From: Chthonomonadales bacterium
GTDB taxonomy: Bacteria; Armatimonadota; Chthonomonadetes; Chthonomonadales; CAJBBX01
DNA length: 64,000 nt
Direction: 5' to 3'
NCBI GenBank assembly: GCA_020849275.1
Contig: JADLGO010000063.1
Coordinates: 1 to 64,000 of the forward strand
This document shows positions 25,866 through 35,554 of the stretch, piece after piece. Each line of letters begins with the position of its first letter. The stretch's first letter is position 1. Both the position numbers and the translations under genes were made by a program. Below the pieces are notes generated by a model, which was not told the origin of the DNA, ran no database searches, and was given only the letters and a program-made list of their open reading frames with translations.

Positions 25866-25885
25866 TTGAGTGAACGTTCAATCAA
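25866..25885. promoter_or_regulatory. Palindromic operator, probably for the TetR regulator
   Basis: TTGAGTGAACGTTCAATCAA is a 20-bp palindrome broken only at one symmetric pair (G/A at 25870 and 25881); its core TGAACGTTCA is perfect. It lies 18 bases before the tetR ATG and about 195 bases upstream of the divergent CHAD gene start. Palindromes of this size and position are the usual sites of TetR/AcrR repressors, so autoregulation and control of the efflux genes are likely. Confidence 0.72.
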
Positions 25886-25902
25886 TCGGGGAAGGCAGGG
25901 AC

Positions 25903-26553
25903 ATGGCCGATGGCGTGAGCTCTCGGAAGCAGCACGCGGAGGAGCGGCGTGAACAGATCGTGGACGCCGCCGCGCGAGTGTTCGCGGCCAAGGGCTTCGG
26001 CGGCGCGTCGGTGCGCGACATCGCGCGCGCCGTCGGCGTGACCGAGGGGCTGCTCTACCACTACTTCGATAGCAAGGAACAGCTCATGGACGCCTGCCTG
26101 CGCGAGCGGACGTGGCGCTCCCACCTCGAGCGCATCCTCGCGGGCAGCGAGGGCAAGCCGGTTGCCGAGGTGATGCGCGAGTTGGCGCTCGACTTCCTCC
26201 TCTCCCTGCAGGAGAACGGCGAGCACGTGCGTATGCAAGCTGCGGAGATGCAGCGCGACGGCAGCCTCGCGGGCGAGTGCATTGAGTACATCGAAGGCAA
26301 CCAGCGGCTCATCATCGACTTCCTAGAGGCGCGCCGCGCCCTCGGCGAGCTCCGTGACGACGTCGACCTCGACACGGTCGGAGGGATCCTGATGGGCTCG
26401 GCGTTCAGCCTGTTCCTGCTGTGGGGCCGCGACGACGCGGCTGCCTGGCGGCGGCGCGTCGAGCGGTTCGCGAGGTCGGCGGTGAGCGTGATCCTGGATG
26501 GGGCCTCCAGTGCCCCACCTTCGGGGCGCGCCAGCGCGCGCAAAGAGCCATAG
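25903..26553 (+). CDS. TetR/AcrR-family transcriptional regulator
   Basis: This 216-residue repressor has an N-terminal helix-turn-helix region: REQIVDAAARVFAAKGFGGASVRDIARAVGVTEGLLYHYFDSKEQLMDA (about 15-62) matches the TetR DNA-binding signature. The C-terminal helical domain (65-200) would bind a ligand and dimerise; MGSAFSLFLLWGRDDAAAW is its last amphipathic part. The ATG at 25903 has GGGGAAGG upstream. The gene lies directly ahead of the outer-membrane, adaptor and permease genes of an efflux pump and has a palindrome in its promoter, so it probably represses itself and the pump until a drug or lipid-like ligand binds. Confidence 0.92.
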   Translation: MADGVSSRKQHAEERREQIVDAAARVFAAKGFGGASVRDIARAVGVTEGLLYHYFDSKEQLMDACLRERTWRSHLERILAGSEGKPVAEVMRELALDFLLSLQENGEHVRMQAAEMQRDGSLAGECIEYIEGNQRLIIDFLEARRALGELRDDVDLDTVGGILMGSAFSLFLLWGRDDAAAWRRRVERFARSAVSVILDGASSAPPSGRASARKEP

Positions 26554-26623
26554 AACGAAGGAACGGTTGCTCGGCGGCGCGGCGGGTGCGGCCTGCCGCC
26601 GACCGGGCTATCAGGAGGACACC

Positions 26624-28066
26624 ATGCGTCGCAGGCGCACAGCCGCCAGCGTTATCGCACTGGCCGCGACACTCAGCGCTCCAGCCTGGGGCCAGGCAGG
26701 CCAGATCCAGACGACGCCGACGACACGACCCGGATCCACCCCGCCGCCGATGCGGCTCACACTCGATGAGGCGGTGGCTCATGCCCTCGCCAGCAGCAAG
26801 ACGCTGGCAACCGCCGCCGAGGCGGTCCAGCGCGCCAGGGGCGTCGTGGGCGAGGCCAGATCGGCCGGCAGCCCGGCGCTCAACTCGAACGTGACGTTCA
26901 CCCATCTGGACCAGGGCTCGTCCTTCAGCATTCAGACAGACCCGAACTCACCTCCCGTGACCGTGCCGATCGTTCGCCAGAACCAGAAGGCGATCGACGT
27001 GTCGGCCGTTCTGCCGATCGATATCGCCGGGCAGATCGGCGCTGCCGTGCAGGCCGCCCAGTTCCAGGAGATCGCCACGCGCCTCGACTACAACCGCGCT
27101 CGCAACCAGCTCGTCCTGGACGTAAAGTCCGGCTACTACGATCTGCTGCGGGCGCGCGCGTTCGTGGACGTTGCCGAGCAGGCACTGCGCAACGCGCAGG
27201 ATCGCGTTACCACCGCGGAGGCGACCTTGCGCGCCGGCACCGGCACACGCTTCGACGTGTTGCGCGCGCAGACCGACGTGGCCAACGCCCAGCAGACCCT
27301 CATCAGCGCGCGCAACGCCGTGAACCTGGCGACCGCAACACTCAACAACCTGCTAAGCCTCGACCAGAACACGCCGATCCAAACGGTGGAGGCCACCGGC
27401 GCACCCACCGAGCCGGCCGCGTCGACGTTCGACGCGGCGGTGGCCGAGGCGTACCAGACCCGGCCAGAGGTCTACCAGGCCGACGCGCAGATCCGCGCCG
27501 CGGAGCGCGGCGTCGTGCTCGCGCAGCGCAGCGTCGTGCCCACGCTCGGCGTCTCGTGGGCCTTTCAGTACTCGCCGGACGCGGGCGGGTTTGCCCCGAA
27601 GGAGACGAGCTGGGCGGCCGTGGCACGCCTGAGCCTCCCGCTCTTCGACGGCGGCCTGGCGAAGGCGCGCACGCGGGAGGCCCGGGCCGACGTCAACACC
27701 GCGCGCATCGCCAAGCAGCAGACGCTCGATGCCGTGGCGCTCGACGTGCGCCAGAACTACCTCGCCCTGGCCGAGGCGCAGGAGCGGCTCAACGTGGCCG
27801 ACGCCGCCCTCACACAGGCTGAGGAGCAGTACCGCCTGGCGCAGGTGCGCTTCAAGGCCGGCGTGACCGCCGTTCCCGGCGGCTCGCCGCTGCTGGAGAT
27901 CAGCGACGCGCAGACGGCTCTCACCCAGGCGCAGACCAACCAGGTGAACGCCCGCTACGACGTGCAGAACGCTCGCGCGCGGCTGGATCGCGCGGTCGGG
28001 CGCTACGCATTCAACGGCGCGGCGGCGCCGGGACTGCCGGCCCCCGCCGACGGAGGTAACCAGTGA
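26624..28066 (+). CDS. TolC-family outer-membrane efflux protein
   Basis: This 480-residue outer-membrane channel has a signal peptide (ending APAWGQA). Two repeated OEP halves follow: MRLTLDEAVAHALASSKTLATAAEAVQRARG begins the first, and TFDAAVAEAYQTRPEVYQADAQIRAAERGV begins the second. Each contains long coiled-coil helices, such as GYYDLLRARAFVDVAEQALRNAQDRV and NYLALAEAQERLNVADAAL. The ATG at 26624 has AGGAGG upstream, and the stop overlaps the adaptor start (GTGA). It would act with the adaptor and RND permease encoded next to export compounds across both membranes. Confidence 0.92.
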   Translation: MRRRRTAASVIALAATLSAPAWGQAGQIQTTPTTRPGSTPPPMRLTLDEAVAHALASSKTLATAAEAVQRARGVVGEARSAGSPALNSNVTFTHLDQGSSFSIQTDPNSPPVTVPIVRQNQKAIDVSAVLPIDIAGQIGAAVQAAQFQEIATRLDYNRARNQLVLDVKSGYYDLLRARAFVDVAEQALRNAQDRVTTAEATLRAGTGTRFDVLRAQTDVANAQQTLISARNAVNLATATLNNLLSLDQNTPIQTVEATGAPTEPAASTFDAAVAEAYQTRPEVYQADAQIRAAERGVVLAQRSVVPTLGVSWAFQYSPDAGGFAPKETSWAAVARLSLPLFDGGLAKARTREARADVNTARIAKQQTLDAVALDVRQNYLALAEAQERLNVADAALTQAEEQYRLAQVRFKAGVTAVPGGSPLLEISDAQTALTQAQTNQVNARYDVQNARARLDRAVGRYAFNGAAAPGLPAPADGGNQ

Positions 28067-29664: not shown

Positions 29665-32600
29665 ATGACGCTCACCAGCCTCGCCATCCGCCGGCCCGTC
29701 TTCATCCTGATGATGGTCGCCGCGCTGCTGGTGCTCGGGCTCAACTCCGCCAGCAAGATGCGGCTGGAACTTAACCCCAAGGTCGACTTCCCGTTCATCG
29801 CGGTCATGACCGTCTACCCGGGCGCTGGGCCGGAAGAGATCGAGACGCAGGTAACCAAGAAGGTCGAGGACGCCGTCGCCAGCGTCAACGGAGTCAAGGA
29901 GATCACCTCCAGCTCCCAGGAAGGGCAGTCCTCGGTCACGATCCAGTTCAACCTGGGGATCCCGTCCGACGTGGCGGCCTCCGACGTGCGCGAGAAAGTG
30001 GGCGCCATTCGCGCCGCCCTGCCGGACGACGCGGAAGAGCCCGTGGTGCTGAAGTTCGACGTGGGCTCGGAGCCCATTCTGTACTACGGCGTCACCGGCG
30101 ACCGGCCGATCCGCGACATCCGGGACATCACCGACAACGTGATCAAGCCACGCCTCAGCCAGGTCCCCGGCGTCGCCGCGGTCACCGTCACCGGCGGCGA
30201 CGTGCGCGAGATCAGCATTGGCGTGCGCAAGGACCGCCTCGATGCCTACGGGATCAGCATCACGCAACTCGTCTCGCTGCTGCAGGCCAACAACCTTAAC
30301 TTTCCAGTGGGCCACATCGTGGAGGGCAACCGCGAGTACAGCATCCGCGTCGTGGGCGAGTACCCCAACGTGGCATCGATCGGCGAGACCCGGCTGCACA
30401 TGCCCAACGGGCAGACCGTACAGCTCTCCGATATCGCCGATGTGCGCGACACCGTGGAGGAGCGCCGCGACCTGAGCCGCATCAACCGCAAGGACTCCGT
30501 GGCGATCGTCATCCAGAAGACCTCCGAGGGCAACACGGTCGACGTCGCCAAGGGCGTGCGCGCGGAGGTTGCCGCGCTCGAAAAGGCGCTGCCCGAGGGC
30601 ATCAAGTTCACGGTCAACCAGGACACCTCCGTGCATGTGGAGGAGTCGGTCGCCGATGTCAAGGCCAGCATCTTCCTCGGGGCGTTCCTGGCCGTCCTGG
30701 TCGTCTTCCTGTTCCTTCACAACATCCGCGGAACGCTCATCGTTGCCATCGCCATCCCGACCTCGATCATGGCGACGTTCCTGCCGATGTACGCGTTCGG
30801 CTTCACGCTGAACACGATGACGATGCTGGCCCTCTCACTCTCGGTGGGCATCTTGGTGGACGATAGCATCGTGGTGCTGGAGAACATCTACCGACACCTC
30901 TCGCGCGGCGAGCCGCCCATGGAGGCGGCGCTCAACGGCCGGGGAGAGATCGGGTTGGCCGCCGTGACGATCACGCTCGTGGACGTGGTGGTGTTCGTTC
31001 CAATCGCCTTCATGGGCGGCATCACCGGCCAGTTCTTCCGCTCGTTCGGCATCACCATCGCCTGTGCGACGCTCTTCTCGCTGCTGATGTCGTTCACGCT
31101 GACGCCCATGCTCGCCTCTCGTTGGTACCGGGCCGGCGAGGCCGTCGAGGCCGAGCACGGCGTCTTCGGCGCGGTGAACCACTTCTATCACTGGCTCGAC
31201 CGCATCTACCGGCACGCGCTCCACTGGGCGCTCCGCTTCCGCGGCATCGTGGTCTACGTGGGGAGCGGGCTGCTGATCCTTGTGTTCGTCGTGATCGCGG
31301 CATCGCTCGCGGGCAAGGCGGCGGCGGCCATGCTCGTGCCGCTCGCGGTGGCGTTCGCCATCGGCGGCGCGCTCCTGCTCTGGCCGTACCGCATCCTGGG
31401 CCTCATCGTGACGGGGGCTGGCGTCGCGGCGGTGTTCCTGGCATTCGGATCGGGCATGGCGGCAGGCAGACCGCTGCTGCTCTTCCGCTTCGCTCCCGAC
31501 CAGGATCAGGGGCAGATTTCGGTGATCGGAGAGCTCCCGGCCGGCACCTCGCTCACCCGTACGCAGGACGTCGCCGAGCACGTGGAGGACGTCGCCGCGA
31601 GCATCAAGGACGTGCAGAACATCTTCACGTCGGTGGGCGCCACGGCGTCCGGCTCGCGCGGCATGGCGAGCGTCGGACCGCAGTACTTCACCCTGAGCAT
31701 GAAACTGAGGGACAAGGAGAGCCTCTGGGACAGCATCAACCCGTTGGCGAGGACGGCGAACCTGCGCAAGCGCTCCGACACCGAGGTCGCCCAGGAACTG
31801 CGCAAGCGAATCGGGCAGATCGCGGGCGCGACCATCAAGGTGGCCGCCGTGACCGGGTTTCAGGGAGGCGGCGCGCCACTCCAGATCGACATCCTGGGCG
31901 ACAACATCGGCGAGCTCACGCGGTTGGGCCAGCAGGTCCTCAAGGTGTTCCGCGAGGAGCCCGGCGTGCTCAACGCCGACGTCTCCACGCGCATCGGCAA
32001 GCCCGAGCAGCGCATCGACGTGGATCGCGACAAGGCCGCCTCCTACGGCCTCTCGGTGGCTGCCATAGCGAACGCCCTGCGAGTATCGATCGAGGGCGAC
32101 AACTCGTCGATCTACCGCGAGGGCGGCAACGAGTACCGCATCCGGGTGCACTTTCGCGGCCTGGACCGCCGCAACACCAACGAGATCAAGAGCATTGTGG
32201 TGGGCAACGTCGCCGGGCCAAACGGCCAGACTCAGCCCGTGAGGTTGGGCGACGTGGCGCGCGTCTATCTCTCCACCGGCCCGACGAAGATCGACCGCAT
32301 GAACCGCCAGAAGCTCGTCTCGGTGACGGCCAACATCGCGCCGGGCTATGCCCCCGGGAACATGCAGGGCAGCATTGAGCGGCGCATGGAGGCCGACCAC
32401 ATCAACTTCGGCCCCAACCACTACCAGTGGGGCGGCGAAAACAAGATCCAGAATGACGAGCAAGGCTACATGGGCGGCGCCCTCGGCCTCTCGATCATCC
32501 TGGTCTACATGCTGATGGCGGCCCTGTTCGACAACCTGCTCTACCCGCTCGTGATCATGGTGTCCCTGCCGCAGGCGATGATCGGCGCGCTCCTCGGCCT

Positions 32601-33030
32601 GATGATCGCCGGGCACGCGCTGACCATCGTGGCGATGATCGGCATCATCATGCTAGTGGGACTCGTGACGAAGAACGCCATCCTGTTGGTGGACTACACG
32701 AACACGCTGCGTAGCCGCGGCTACGCGCGCAACGACGCGATACTGGAGGCGGGGCCGACGCGGCTCCGACCCATCTTGATGACGACGATGGCCATGGTCT
32801 TCGGCATGCTGCCGACGGCCCTCGGCCTGGGCCGCGGCGCCGAGTTCCGCGCGCCGCTGGCGACCCCGGTGATCGGAGGGCTGCTGCTGTCGACCGTGCT
32901 GACGCTTCTCGTCATCCCCTGCGTCTACACCTACTTCGACGATGCCAGTCGCTTCCTCGGGCGTCACCTGACGCGCAGGCGGCTCACATCGACCGGCGCC
33001 GCGCCGTCCGAGCCGGCCCGGGCCGAGTGA
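29665..33030 (+). CDS. RND efflux permease (AcrB/HAE1 family) with extra membrane segments
   Basis: This 1121-residue proton-driven permease begins LTSLAIRRPVFILMMVAALL, as HAE1 transporters do. The proton-relay residues are D399 and D400 in VGILVDDSIVVLENIYR, and K1003 in GLVTKNAILLVDYTN. Large periplasmic porter regions follow segments 1 and 7. Between segment 7 (about 526-549) and the second periplasmic region (FRFAPDQDQG at about 607) there are some 50 additional residues with two further hydrophobic segments (about 551-575 and 576-602). AcrB goes directly from segment 7 to this region. The gene follows its adaptor by 69 bases. The substrate is unknown. Confidence 0.92.
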   Translation: MTLTSLAIRRPVFILMMVAALLVLGLNSASKMRLELNPKVDFPFIAVMTVYPGAGPEEIETQVTKKVEDAVASVNGVKEITSSSQEGQSSVTIQFNLGIPSDVAASDVREKVGAIRAALPDDAEEPVVLKFDVGSEPILYYGVTGDRPIRDIRDITDNVIKPRLSQVPGVAAVTVTGGDVREISIGVRKDRLDAYGISITQLVSLLQANNLNFPVGHIVEGNREYSIRVVGEYPNVASIGETRLHMPNGQTVQLSDIADVRDTVEERRDLSRINRKDSVAIVIQKTSEGNTVDVAKGVRAEVAALEKALPEGIKFTVNQDTSVHVEESVADVKASIFLGAFLAVLVVFLFLHNIRGTLIVAIAIPTSIMATFLPMYAFGFTLNTMTMLALSLSVGILVDDSIVVLENIYRHLSRGEPPMEAALNGRGEIGLAAVTITLVDVVVFVPIAFMGGITGQFFRSFGITIACATLFSLLMSFTLTPMLASRWYRAGEAVEAEHGVFGAVNHFYHWLDRIYRHALHWALRFRGIVVYVGSGLLILVFVVIAASLAGKAAAAMLVPLAVAFAIGGALLLWPYRILGLIVTGAGVAAVFLAFGSGMAAGRPLLLFRFAPDQDQGQISVIGELPAGTSLTRTQDVAEHVEDVAASIKDVQNIFTSVGATASGSRGMASVGPQYFTLSMKLRDKESLWDSINPLARTANLRKRSDTEVAQELRKRIGQIAGATIKVAAVTGFQGGGAPLQIDILGDNIGELTRLGQQVLKVFREEPGVLNADVSTRIGKPEQRIDVDRDKAASYGLSVAAIANALRVSIEGDNSSIYREGGNEYRIRVHFRGLDRRNTNEIKSIVVGNVAGPNGQTQPVRLGDVARVYLSTGPTKIDRMNRQKLVSVTANIAPGYAPGNMQGSIERRMEADHINFGPNHYQWGGENKIQNDEQGYMGGALGLSIILVYMLMAALFDNLLYPLVIMVSLPQAMIGALLGLMIAGHALTIVAMIGIIMLVGLVTKNAILLVDYTNTLRSRGYARNDAILEAGPTRLRPILMTTMAMVFGMLPTALGLGRGAEFRAPLATPVIGGLLLSTVLTLLVIPCVYTYFDDASRFLGRHLTRRRLTSTGAAPSEPARAE

Positions 33031-33115: not shown

Positions 33116-35554
33116 ATGCAGAAGCGACGATTTGCGAGCCGGGCCGCTGCGGCCCGCCCGAGACGGGCGCGCTCCACCCTCAGGAAGCGGCTGAAGACCG
33201 TTGCCGCGCTCATCGCTCTGTTCATTCTCTGTCCCGCGGCCGTCGCCGCCCTGTACCTGGTCGTCGTCTTCGTTCAGGTCCGCGACACGCTGCCATCCAT
33301 CGCCGAGATCGGCGCGTACAGCCCGATGGAGGGCACGCGGATCTACTACGCCGACACGGACCCCGCAGGCCGCCCGGTGCTGATGGCCGTGCTCGCCACC
33401 GAGTTCTGTCGACCGGTCAAGCTTAAGGACATCGATCCGAACCTGCGCAACGCCACGATCGCCGCCGAGGACGCGCGCTTCTACCGCCATGGCGGCGTCG
33501 ACTACATCGGAATCCTGCGGGCCCTCTACCGCAACGTGAGCGAGGGCGACCTTCGAGGCCAGGGCGCCAGCACCATCACGCAACAACTCGTCCGCAACAT
33601 CAGCAGCCTGGGCCTGACGCGCCAGAAGCTCCTTCGGCGCAAGCTAGCGGAGGCGATCCTGGCGGTGCAGATCGAGCAGGCCTGGACCAAGCCAGAGATC
33701 CTCGAGCTCTACCTCAATCAAATCTACTACGGCAATGGGGCCTATGGCGCGGAGGCCGCCGCCCGCACCTACTTCCACAAAAGCGCCCGCAAGCTCACGC
33801 TCGCCGAGGCGGCTCTCCTGGCCGGTATCCCGCAGCGACCCAGTCGCTACGCCGACAACGTGGATGCGGCCATGCGCAGGCGCGACTGGGTGCTGGACCG
33901 CATGGTGGAGACCGGCACGATCTCGCAGGCTGAGCGCGACGGGGCCGCCTCGAAGCGCCCGAGGATCTATGAGCCGGAGCCGCGGAGCTCGCGTGTCCTG
34001 GGCGCGCCCTACTTCGTGAACCACGTGGTCTCCCACCTCGTGCGCGAGTATGGGGCCGACAAGGCATTCAGCGGCCTGCGCGTCTACACATCGCTCGACT
34101 CACGCATGCAGCGAGAGGCGGAGAAGACGCTGCGCGAAGGCGTCCGCCGCTACGGCGGCAGCGCCAACCAGGGCTGCCTGATCTGCCTGGAGAACCGGAC
34201 CGGCTACATCCGCGCGGTGGTCGGCGGCCTCGACTACAAGCGCGACCAGTTCAACATCGCCATGCAAGGCCGGCGCCAGCCCGGCTCCGCCTTCAAGCCC
34301 ATCGTCTATGCCGCCGCCCTCGACACGGGGACCTGCACCCTGCGCTCCACCTACCGTGACGACCCGGCGTTCCCGTGGCGCGGCCGCGACAAGTGGATTC
34401 CGAAGAACTACGGGGGACGCTACAGCTACCGCTCCGTGACCGTGCTGAGCGCCATCAAGCGCTCGCTGAACACCATCGCGGTCAAGACGGCCCTCGACGT
34501 CGGCATCGATCAGGTCGTTGCGTACGCGGCGCGGCTCGGCATCACCACGCCGATGGCCCCCTACCCGCCGCTAGCGCTCGGCGCCTCCGCCGTGCGGCCC
34601 ATCGACCTCGCCTCCGCCTACTCCGTGTTCGCCAATGGCGGCCAGCGCGCCGTGCCAGGCGGCATCCTGCGCGTGGTGGACCGCGACGGTGAGCCCCTGG
34701 AGGAGAACCAGCCGCGAATCGACGACCCGCACCTGCGCCCGGAGACCGTCGAGCAGATGAATGAGGCGCTGCAGGAGGTGGTGCGGCACGGCACGGGCAC
34801 GAGGGCGGCCGACGTGCCGGACGCACACGGCAAGACCGGAACGACCAGCGACAACCGCGATGCCTGGTTCGCCGGCTACACGCCAGAGCTGACCACCGTG
34901 ATCTGGGTGGCGCACGAGGTGCGAACGAAGGGCGGGCGTGTATCGGCCTACGCCGCGATGCCGGGCGCGACGGGCGGCCACTGCTGCGCGCCGATCTGGC
35001 GCGACTTCATGCTCAAGGCGGTGCCGCTGCAGCGCCAACTCGCCCGCGCGACCGAGGAGCGCGCCGCGCCGACGGCAGAGCCGCTGCCCGAGAAGGTGAA
35101 AGCGAAGCCCGACGAGAAGACCATCGCGGCCCCGGAGACGCCGGCCGCGGACCCTGCGACAGCCGAGGCGCCGCCGCAGGAATCTGGCGCCCTGGACGCA
35201 GGTCCGGTTCCGGCCATCGTATCCGGCGATGACGGAGCGACGCCGGAGCCGACGGTCAGCGTGCCGGCGCCGTCCACGGCGGTCGGGCCGCTACCCGCCG
35301 CTCGCCCACGCCCGGCCGCGTCGCCCGGAGTCGGCAGCGGCGCCATTCGTCCCGCGGAGCCCACGGGTCGCCCGGCCCAGCCGGCAGTCGCCGCGCCGAA
35401 CCCGGGCGACCAGCTCGTCACGGTGGCGCTTTGTGCCGACTCCATGCGGCGCGCCACGGACTGGTGCCCTACGCGCCTGACGCGCCGCCTCCCTCGCCGC
35501 GACGTCCCGCCACGGTGCCGCATGCACAGGCCGCCGCCTGGCGAGGATCGCTGA
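33116..35554 (+). CDS. Class A penicillin-binding protein (bifunctional transglycosylase/transpeptidase)
   Basis: This 812-residue cell-wall synthase has a basic cytoplasmic N-terminus and one membrane anchor (about 27-53). The GT51 domain shows AAEDARFYRHGGVD (catalytic E118) and GQGASTITQQLVRN. The transpeptidase domain has S391-A-F-K, KRSLN and HGKTGTTSDN. A Pro/Ala-rich tail of roughly 170 residues ends in a cysteine-bearing segment (LCADSMRRATDWCP, then PPRCRMH), which resembles the C-terminal motif of some PBP1A proteins. The ATG at 33116 sits directly at the predicted transcription start. PBP2 follows 15 bases later, a natural pairing for peptidoglycan synthesis. Confidence 0.93.
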   Translation: MQKRRFASRAAAARPRRARSTLRKRLKTVAALIALFILCPAAVAALYLVVVFVQVRDTLPSIAEIGAYSPMEGTRIYYADTDPAGRPVLMAVLATEFCRPVKLKDIDPNLRNATIAAEDARFYRHGGVDYIGILRALYRNVSEGDLRGQGASTITQQLVRNISSLGLTRQKLLRRKLAEAILAVQIEQAWTKPEILELYLNQIYYGNGAYGAEAAARTYFHKSARKLTLAEAALLAGIPQRPSRYADNVDAAMRRRDWVLDRMVETGTISQAERDGAASKRPRIYEPEPRSSRVLGAPYFVNHVVSHLVREYGADKAFSGLRVYTSLDSRMQREAEKTLREGVRRYGGSANQGCLICLENRTGYIRAVVGGLDYKRDQFNIAMQGRRQPGSAFKPIVYAAALDTGTCTLRSTYRDDPAFPWRGRDKWIPKNYGGRYSYRSVTVLSAIKRSLNTIAVKTALDVGIDQVVAYAARLGITTPMAPYPPLALGASAVRPIDLASAYSVFANGGQRAVPGGILRVVDRDGEPLEENQPRIDDPHLRPETVEQMNEALQEVVRHGTGTRAADVPDAHGKTGTTSDNRDAWFAGYTPELTTVIWVAHEVRTKGGRVSAYAAMPGATGGHCCAPIWRDFMLKAVPLQRQLARATEERAAPTAEPLPEKVKAKPDEKTIAAPETPAADPATAEAPPQESGALDAGPVPAIVSGDDGATPEPTVSVPAPSTAVGPLPAARPRPAASPGVGSGAIRPAEPTGRPAQPAVAAPNPGDQLVTVALCADSMRRATDWCPTRLTRRLPRRDVPPRCRMHRPPPGEDR

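Follow-up and report, generated by a model that had tools for sequence, protein, structure and literature searches.

An inherited 14-segment variant of the HAE-1 RND pump, with an added hairpin at TM7, in Armatimonadota

Can the membrane domain of an RND pump accept additional helices, and if so, are they a lasting part of the pump? The usual picture of an RND pump is that of a fixed design with 12 helices, and the pumps studied structurally are largely proteobacterial. The question is raised by a permease gene in the 64,000-nucleotide stretch of DNA analyzed here (the window; positions 1 to 64,000 of contig JADLGO010000063.1, from a Chthonomonadales bacterium of the phylum Armatimonadota). 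Its product has extra hydrophobic residues at the position of the seventh membrane segment (TM7), where AcrB has a single helix. Our analysis confirmed that this hairpin pump is a real, inherited form of the HAE-1 RND pump with 14 segments, and it found a separate parallel, of greater complexity, in Vulcanimicrobiota.

Anatomy and topology of the insert

In an alignment of the permease (the query) with 108 other RND proteins, the anchors at residues 510 and 630 enclosed 121 residues in the query and 63 in AcrB; the genome's five other RND permeases had 63–68 residues between these anchors. Three 19-residue hydropathy peaks lie in this region of the query, at residues 528–546 (2.82), 554–572 (2.37) and 577–595 (2.29); we call the corresponding segments H1, H2 and H3. 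AcrB, the genome's own paralogue L058 and the hairpin-less orthologue L107 each have only one peak at this site. Over the whole protein, there were 14 peaks in the query, 12 in AcrB, 12 in L107 and 13 in L058, one of the last lying outside the known segments. An earlier note on this DNA had placed an added hydrophobic stretch at residues 551–602, which was close: about 58 residues are added, at roughly 547–606, and there are three peaks where AcrB has one.

In a control for chance, 5000 random 121-mers with the amino acid composition of the protein gave no third peak of 2.42, and the best value in 348 periplasmic windows was 0.88. With the bar lowered to three peaks of 1.3 or more, 227 of 2000 random 121-mers passed. 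Because a loose peak count is common by chance, the weight of the evidence lies with peak height and conservation and not with the count. Residues at the borders of the region are conserved in the 70 insert-bearing rows of the phylum. The linking helix that precedes TM7 keeps Y515 (70/70), L519 (69/70) and L523 (67/70), H1 keeps G533 (69/70) and L537 (70/70), and the exit linker into the second periplasmic domain keeps F607 (62/70), F609 (65/70) and P611 (69/70). A Pfam search of three insert stretches for a known domain returned a best E-value of 0.76, and a plasmid search with the insert gave no match. When a 149-residue query around the insert was used, solved RND chains matched only from its residue 88–97 or so onward, along with weak unrelated matches.

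To assign orientation, lysine and arginine residues (K/R) were counted in every row that has three peaks and no fourth (71 rows, 70 from the phylum plus L016 of Vulcanimicrobiota; L100, which has four peaks, was left out). On average there were 3.9 K/R in the 15-residue stretch preceding H1, 1.0 in the H1–H2 loop and 2.8 in the H2–H3 loop; the H2–H3 loop was the richer of the two loops in 64 of the 71 rows, and the two were equal in 6. By the positive-inside rule, this family pattern directs H1 outward, H2 inward and H3 outward, so that the second periplasmic domain stays outside. An AlphaFold2 model built from the query and 29 distant homologues had a mean predicted local distance difference test score (pLDDT) of 81.7 and drew H1, H2 and H3 as separate helices (borders in Table 1). 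Compared with the PDB, the whole model resembled AdeB (7b8p; Z 54.6, root-mean-square deviation 3.0, 996 residues) and Klebsiella pneumoniae AcrB (8p1i; Z 54.4), and AcrD also matched. Hydropathy peaks, the family K/R pattern and the modeled helices thus agree with the earlier proposal of two extra helices, 14 segments and an unchanged topology. It is very probable that the extra stretch consists of two added hydrophobic helices at the TM7 position, giving 14 segments in all.

Distribution and history of the hairpin

We searched 291 genomes of the phylum with the insert-bearing query at E≤1e-200. A match was found in 115 genomes, and 113 of these matches, from 15 families, span the insert in one alignment; the two that do not are in G228 (residues 1–541) and G035 (residues 1–539) and belong to the hairpin-less orthologues L106 and L107, and 176 genomes had no match at this threshold. 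Since an insert-bearing query at E≤1e-200 favors insert-bearers, these counts are not a frequency. Seventy-one of the 113 spanning pumps were read (one gene per genome, the window included), and all 71 carry the insert, with three or four peaks. Among the 109 aligned rows, 71 have three peaks and one has four. The remaining rows show a single peak: in 12 the stretch is longer but hydrophilic, and in 25 its length is ordinary. The 72 rows with three or four peaks are the 71 pumps of this phylum and L016.

Pumps lacking the hairpin also exist in the phylum. The paralogue L058 (contig C71), 46% identical to the query over the first half, has 64 residues at the site. Within the order, the hairpin pump was found in 10 of 31 genomes. 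In family f3, 10 of 17 genomes gave only a half-length match, at 46–49% identity (E≤1e-130), and all nine such half-length relatives that were read (families f1, f2 and f3) have 64 residues at the site. The hairpin is an inherited trait of this pump across much of the phylum, in at least 15 families, and not an oddity of one gene. The word “unusual,” which the earlier note had used for the insertion, holds in that AcrB lacks it, that the 60 RND chains listed in the PDB search all have 1069 residues or fewer, and that shallow samples of three other phyla did not show it at this site; it does not hold for this pump, to which the hairpin is common in 15 families of the phylum, nor in view of similar additions in Vulcanimicrobiota. 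That note would have given up the point if the segment were widespread in RND pumps: it is so inside the phylum but, within the sampling made here, not among RND pumps in general.

In order to follow gain and loss, a tree of 61 rows was built without the insert columns. Its phylum clade held 41 insert-bearing and 12 hairpin-less rows, and the 12 formed one clade (Shimodaira–Hasegawa-like approximate likelihood ratio test support 95) nested among the insert-bearers via forks of 90 and 86. This suggests that the hairpin was gained early and then lost once. An approximately unbiased test did not reject a single clade of all 41 insert-bearing phylum rows (p 0.177), so gain followed by loss is the best tree and not a proof. 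A FastTree analysis of 109 rows placed L107 and a second hairpin-less orthologue, L106, beside L100–L102 and apart from L058; as the placement differs, the branch order is unsure.

L016, assigned to Vulcanimicrobiota by its record lineage, has three peaks, and its relative L033 has one. A search of that phylum with L016 found a match in 42 of 148 genomes at E≤1e-200. We read 36 loci, two of which are the same gene; the resulting 35 distinct genes were chosen by likeness to L016, and their shares are not frequencies. No extra peak is present in 12 of them. Downstream of the linking helix, 22 carry three to five peaks; upstream of it, seven carry two, and six of these seven belong to the 22 as well. 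Five genes combine three peaks after the linking helix with two before, one combines four with two, and five have five after. The two peaks between TM6 and the linking helix were seen in L159, L162–L164, L166, L167 and L149, all of which except L149 also have three or four after it. In L150, L152, L153, L155 and L156, the stretch from the linking helix to the second periplasmic domain holds five peaks, suggesting two added hairpins. If all peaks are membrane helices, the Vulcanimicrobiota relatives apparently have 12, 14 and about 16 or more segments. In an 83-row tree the clades of the two phyla are separate, with a support of 100 each, and at least seven changes are needed to explain which genes have extra peaks after the linking helix and which do not.

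Three other phyla were sampled via L010 (Pseudomonadota), L034 (Bacteroidota) and L009 (Thermodesulfobacteriota). With two candidates scored per genome, P0001 at E≤1e-150 gave 12 matches in 398 Pseudomonadota genomes, 5 in 296 Bacteroidota genomes and none in 297 Thermodesulfobacteriota genomes, the last in a search without a positive control. The 17 Pseudomonadota and Bacteroidota genes (L168–L184) have one peak after the linking helix and a partly hydrophobic insert before it, where they hold 66–92 residues versus 30 in the query and 29–40 in seven reference rows. Twelve betaproteobacterial RND pumps (L013–L015, L018, L021–L024, L029, L032, L037 and L041) have a hydrophilic insert of 35–46 residues between the linking helix and TM7, Arg-rich by eye and presumably cytoplasmic. 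No hairpin follows the linking helix in any of these 29 genes. The searches in other phyla were shallow, and they give an indication, not a demonstration, that a hairpin at this site is rare there.

Place and possible role of the hairpin

H2 and H3 vary more than any other membrane segment. Across 71 rows, their entropies (2.76 and 2.56 bits) are the highest of the 14 segments, followed by H1 at 2.14, with the others between 0.47 and 1.87 (TM4, 0.47). The ratio of non-synonymous to synonymous change per site (pN/pS) in the insert was 0.08–0.49 in the 11 insert-bearing pairs tested, three of them with saturated synonymous sites; it exceeded the value for the first 505 residues in all 11 pairs, yet stayed well under 1. 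Within the 17-residue cores of the helices, charged or His residues were found in 11 of 70 rows for H2, in 8 for H3 and in no row for H1. The insert is under purifying selection: its membrane-helix character is kept while the letters drift. Such freedom to vary in segments that stay helical is what one would expect where a protein faces lipid.

TM7 lies at the periphery of the AcrB membrane domain, and substrate channel 1 starts at the TM7/TM8 groove, according to the passage available from PMC8277102. Drugs have been observed at this groove, as stated in an excerpt of PMC12749989, and the titles of PDB entries 6zod and 6zof point to the same. AcrZ, a membrane helix, occupies a hydrophobic groove in AcrB, and it increases resistance to certain substrates (excerpts of PMC7267776 and PMC13095208). 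Because the hairpin is hydrophobic, variable, mostly uncharged and tied to TM7, its most likely place is the lipid-facing rim next to the groove.

We lean, by a modest degree, toward a reading in which the permease is an ordinary HAE-1 antiporter with an extra hairpin beside TM7 on the lipid-facing rim, bracing TM7 or shaping the TM7/TM8 groove. The gene would encode the inner-membrane part of a TetR–TolC–adaptor–RND exporter and would still exchange protons for substrate as HAE-1 pumps do. The parts of this reading differ in strength. A location on the rim beside TM7, outside the proton path, is likely. By analogy with AcrB, the hairpin might, more tentatively, brace TM7 and help to form the outer wall of the groove, the entry for lipid-dissolved substrates; it would then correspond to a small accessory helix of the AcrZ kind, but one covalently attached to the pump.

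The earlier note had put the added pair after segment 7. The pair does adjoin TM7, but a profile of ordinary TM7 matches both H1 (model positions 1–40) and H3 with the exit (about 25–78), overlapping, in most of the 15 rows printed, so the hairpin may stand before, within or after TM7. In some compact versions (e.g., L101 and L104) the H3 exit resembles an ordinary TM7 exit. The higher pLDDT of H1 is biased in this respect, as the AlphaFold2 alignment put the N-terminal half of ordinary TM7s on H1. A split alignment made against this bias apparently aligned C-terminal fragments to the N-terminal half (14–18% identity) and was not used for folding; nor were three distant relatives found when viral contigs were scanned with A2 for orthologues to fold. 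A duplication of TM7 was considered and rejected: the mean ungapped BLOSUM62 score of H1 versus H3 was 10.4, within the range of H1 versus other segments (7.1–15.7).

Several observations count against the reading we favor. The two loops of the query carry one basic residue each (K551 and R576), so its own charge pattern is uninformative and the pattern belongs to the family. Model confidence falls from a pLDDT of about 89 to 65 along H1 and is lower still in H2 and H3 (Table 1), and a second model (residues 497–1121, without the TM7 rows; mean pLDDT 74.3) joined H1 and H2 into one long helix at about 56–73; the predicted position of the hairpin in the fold thus comes from a low-confidence model. 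The family f8 orthologues L106 and L107, with 59–60% identity to the query, have 64 residues at the site, and other hairpin-less orthologues of moderate identity may have been missed at E≤1e-200. Finally, low conservation of H2 and H3 also fits an insertion that is tolerated without function.

This last point leads to the main rival, that a hairpin slipped into a permissive TM6–linker–TM7 junction early in the phylum, was harmless or rarely lost cleanly, and has no specific role. It would account for H2 and H3 being the least conserved segments, for the higher pN/pS of the insert than of the first 505 residues in every pair, for the existence of hairpin-less orthologues, and for the other inserts held by this junction (the betaproteobacterial hydrophilic ones, those before the linking helix and the Vulcanimicrobiota hairpins). 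However, all 71 spanning rows read keep the membrane helices, albeit from a search that favors insert-bearers, and the insert is under purifying selection; we regard tolerated accretion as possible but doubtful. It is improbable that the hairpin serves to dock a small membrane subunit, a membrane anchor of the adaptor or a neighboring protomer. A place on the outer rim and the binding of an accessory helix to the AcrB membrane domain (excerpts of PMC7267776 and PMC13095208) would suit such a role, but the low conservation of H2 and H3 speaks against a specific interface, although G568 is kept in 49 of 70 rows, and L106 and L107 have an adaptor gene alongside even without the hairpin.

The earlier note had also suggested that the insertion may change proton coupling, since it lies in the membrane domain beside the second repeat, which moves in the cycle. 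This idea found no support, as the relay residues are retained: the five positions on TM4, TM10 and TM11 (those in Table 1 and T1040, which aligns with AcrB T978) are unchanged in 69–71 of 71 rows, and the few deviations are single gaps or single differing residues. In addition, most of the added helices are free of charged and His residues, and AcrB has TM7 on its periphery (passage of PMC8277102), making altered coupling very unlikely. An artefact of sequencing, assembly or reading frame, to which we give practically no credence, is refuted by orthologues with a like stretch in 70 other genomes of the phylum, and synonymous exceeded non-synonymous change per site in the pairs tested. Looking beyond this gene, we speculate, with considerable doubt, that the TM6–linker–TM7 junction could be a hot spot of repeated hairpin gain and loss in at least two phyla, whose 14- and 16-segment pumps would use added hairpins as a built-in, AcrZ-like groove wall that tunes the export of lipid-dissolved compounds.

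The pump locus and known systems

The permease matches Pfam ACR_tran with 847.4 bits (gathering score 28) in two stretches. It also matches 17 NCBIfam models, all under their curated cut-offs, with the eleven best split into two stretches. It stays under the cut-offs of the HAE-1 subfamily models NF033617 RND_permease_2 (787.6 versus 1250) and TIGR00915 (505 versus 940.35), scores that are lowered because the match breaks at the insert, and the permease is not filed in either subfamily. It does have two six-helix repeats, each with a large periplasmic loop after its first helix, and thus the 12 canonical segments plus two more.

The neighbors are those of an HAE-1 tripartite exporter, with an adaptor above its cut-off and a TolC-like channel under the cut-offs (Table 1). 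The spacing is like that of a tight operon: the open reading frame (ORF) of the TolC-like channel shares 56 bases with the end of the TetR ORF and 4 bases with the beginning of the adaptor ORF. Among 72 loci read with their flanks, two of them hairpin-less, 68 have an adaptor-like ORF next to the pump gene. A TolC-like ORF was present in 30 of 40 loci, some of which are truncated by the end of the contig. TetR-like ORFs are also near pumps L080, L081 and L082. The adaptor of the window is long, with three TIGR01730 stretches and, by eye, a long coiled-coil-like middle. Adaptor ORFs of about 480 codons also stand beside L106 and L107; adaptor length therefore does not go with the hairpin. A P0001 search found five further RND permease genes in the same genome (contigs C71, C42, C14, C61 and C52), all without the hairpin. 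A search of this genome for a 16S gene gave no match.

Table 1. Features of the pump locus, with nucleotide positions in the window and residue numbers of the permease
Feature	Position	Strand	Basis
TetR-type regulator, first gene of apparent operon	25870..26553	+	NCBIfam matches, all under cut-offs
TolC/NodT-like outer-membrane channel	26498..28066	+	TIGR01845 and TIGR01844 matches under cut-off
Periplasmic adaptor, 510 aa	28063..29595	+	TIGR01730, 220 bits (cut-off 94.9)
HAE-1-type RND permease, 1121 aa, 14 predicted membrane segments	29665..33030	+	ATG ORF with translation, ACR_tran, hydropathy
Proton-relay D399, D400 (TM4; AcrB D407, D408)	30859..30864	+	71/71 and 70/71 rows
Cytoplasmic linking helix before TM7, residues 500–524	31162..31236	+	AlphaFold2 helix; conserved residues
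First helix H1, residues 526–549, TM7-type start (G533, L537)	31240..31311	+	AlphaFold2 helix
Added stretch, about 58 residues, roughly 547–606, borders ambiguous	31303..31482	+	Placed by alignment; 121 versus 63 residues
Second helix H2, residues 551–572	31315..31380	+	Hydropathy 2.37; AlphaFold2 pLDDT about 55
Short H2–H3 loop, residues 573–576			One Arg in query; K/R-rich across family
Third helix H3, residues 576–597	31390..31455	+	Hydropathy 2.29; AlphaFold2 pLDDT about 45–50
Exit linker into second periplasmic domain, ends at P611	31456..31497	+	Conserved F607, F609, P611
Proton-relay K1003 (TM10; AcrB K940)	32671..32673	+	69/71 rows, one gap, one N
Proton-relay R1033 (AcrB R971)	32761..32763	+	70/71 rows, one gap
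PBP1A-family penicillin-binding protein, next gene downstream	33116-35554		TIGR02074 above cut-off

A phylum-wide 14-segment pump, hairpin-less relatives, and a second phylum with one or more hairpins together form a natural experiment. They raise the question whether added parts can be accommodated on the outer rim near TM7, the place of drug entry from the membrane, and with what effect on uptake. Annotation that assumes 12 segments will misdraw these proteins. The passage available from PMC8277102 gives RND superfamily proteins 12, sometimes 13 or 14 helices, without naming in that passage the proteins concerned; a count of 14 is therefore not new as such. The place and recurrence of the hairpin may be new: among the literature matches listed (titles and beginnings of abstracts), none described an HAE-1 pump with a hairpin inserted at TM7.

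The permease shares with HAE-1 permeases of the AcrB, MexB, AdeB and MdtB type the whole fold, the two six-helix repeats, the two periplasmic domains, the relay residues, and the adaptor and TolC-like partners; it differs from them by about 58 extra residues that form two more hydrophobic segments at TM7. Its 1121 residues compare with 1069 in the longest solved RND chain among the 60 matches listed in the PDB search. The hairpin-less pumps of the same phylum (L058 and the f8 orthologues L106 and L107) belong with the query in a phylum-specific clade, but have 64 residues and one hydrophobic peak at the site. Many Vulcanimicrobiota relatives (e.g., L016, L133, L140–L148 and L150–L156) likewise have extra hydrophobic segments at the same junction; in contrast to the query, they form a separate clade, show as many as five peaks downstream of the linking helix and, in seven of the genes, another two upstream of it. 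The likeness to Escherichia coli AcrZ would be one of role only, that of a helix lodged in a groove of the membrane domain (excerpts of PMC7267776 and PMC13095208): AcrZ is a separate 49-residue protein with one helix, whereas the predicted helix pair described here is covalently part of the pump.

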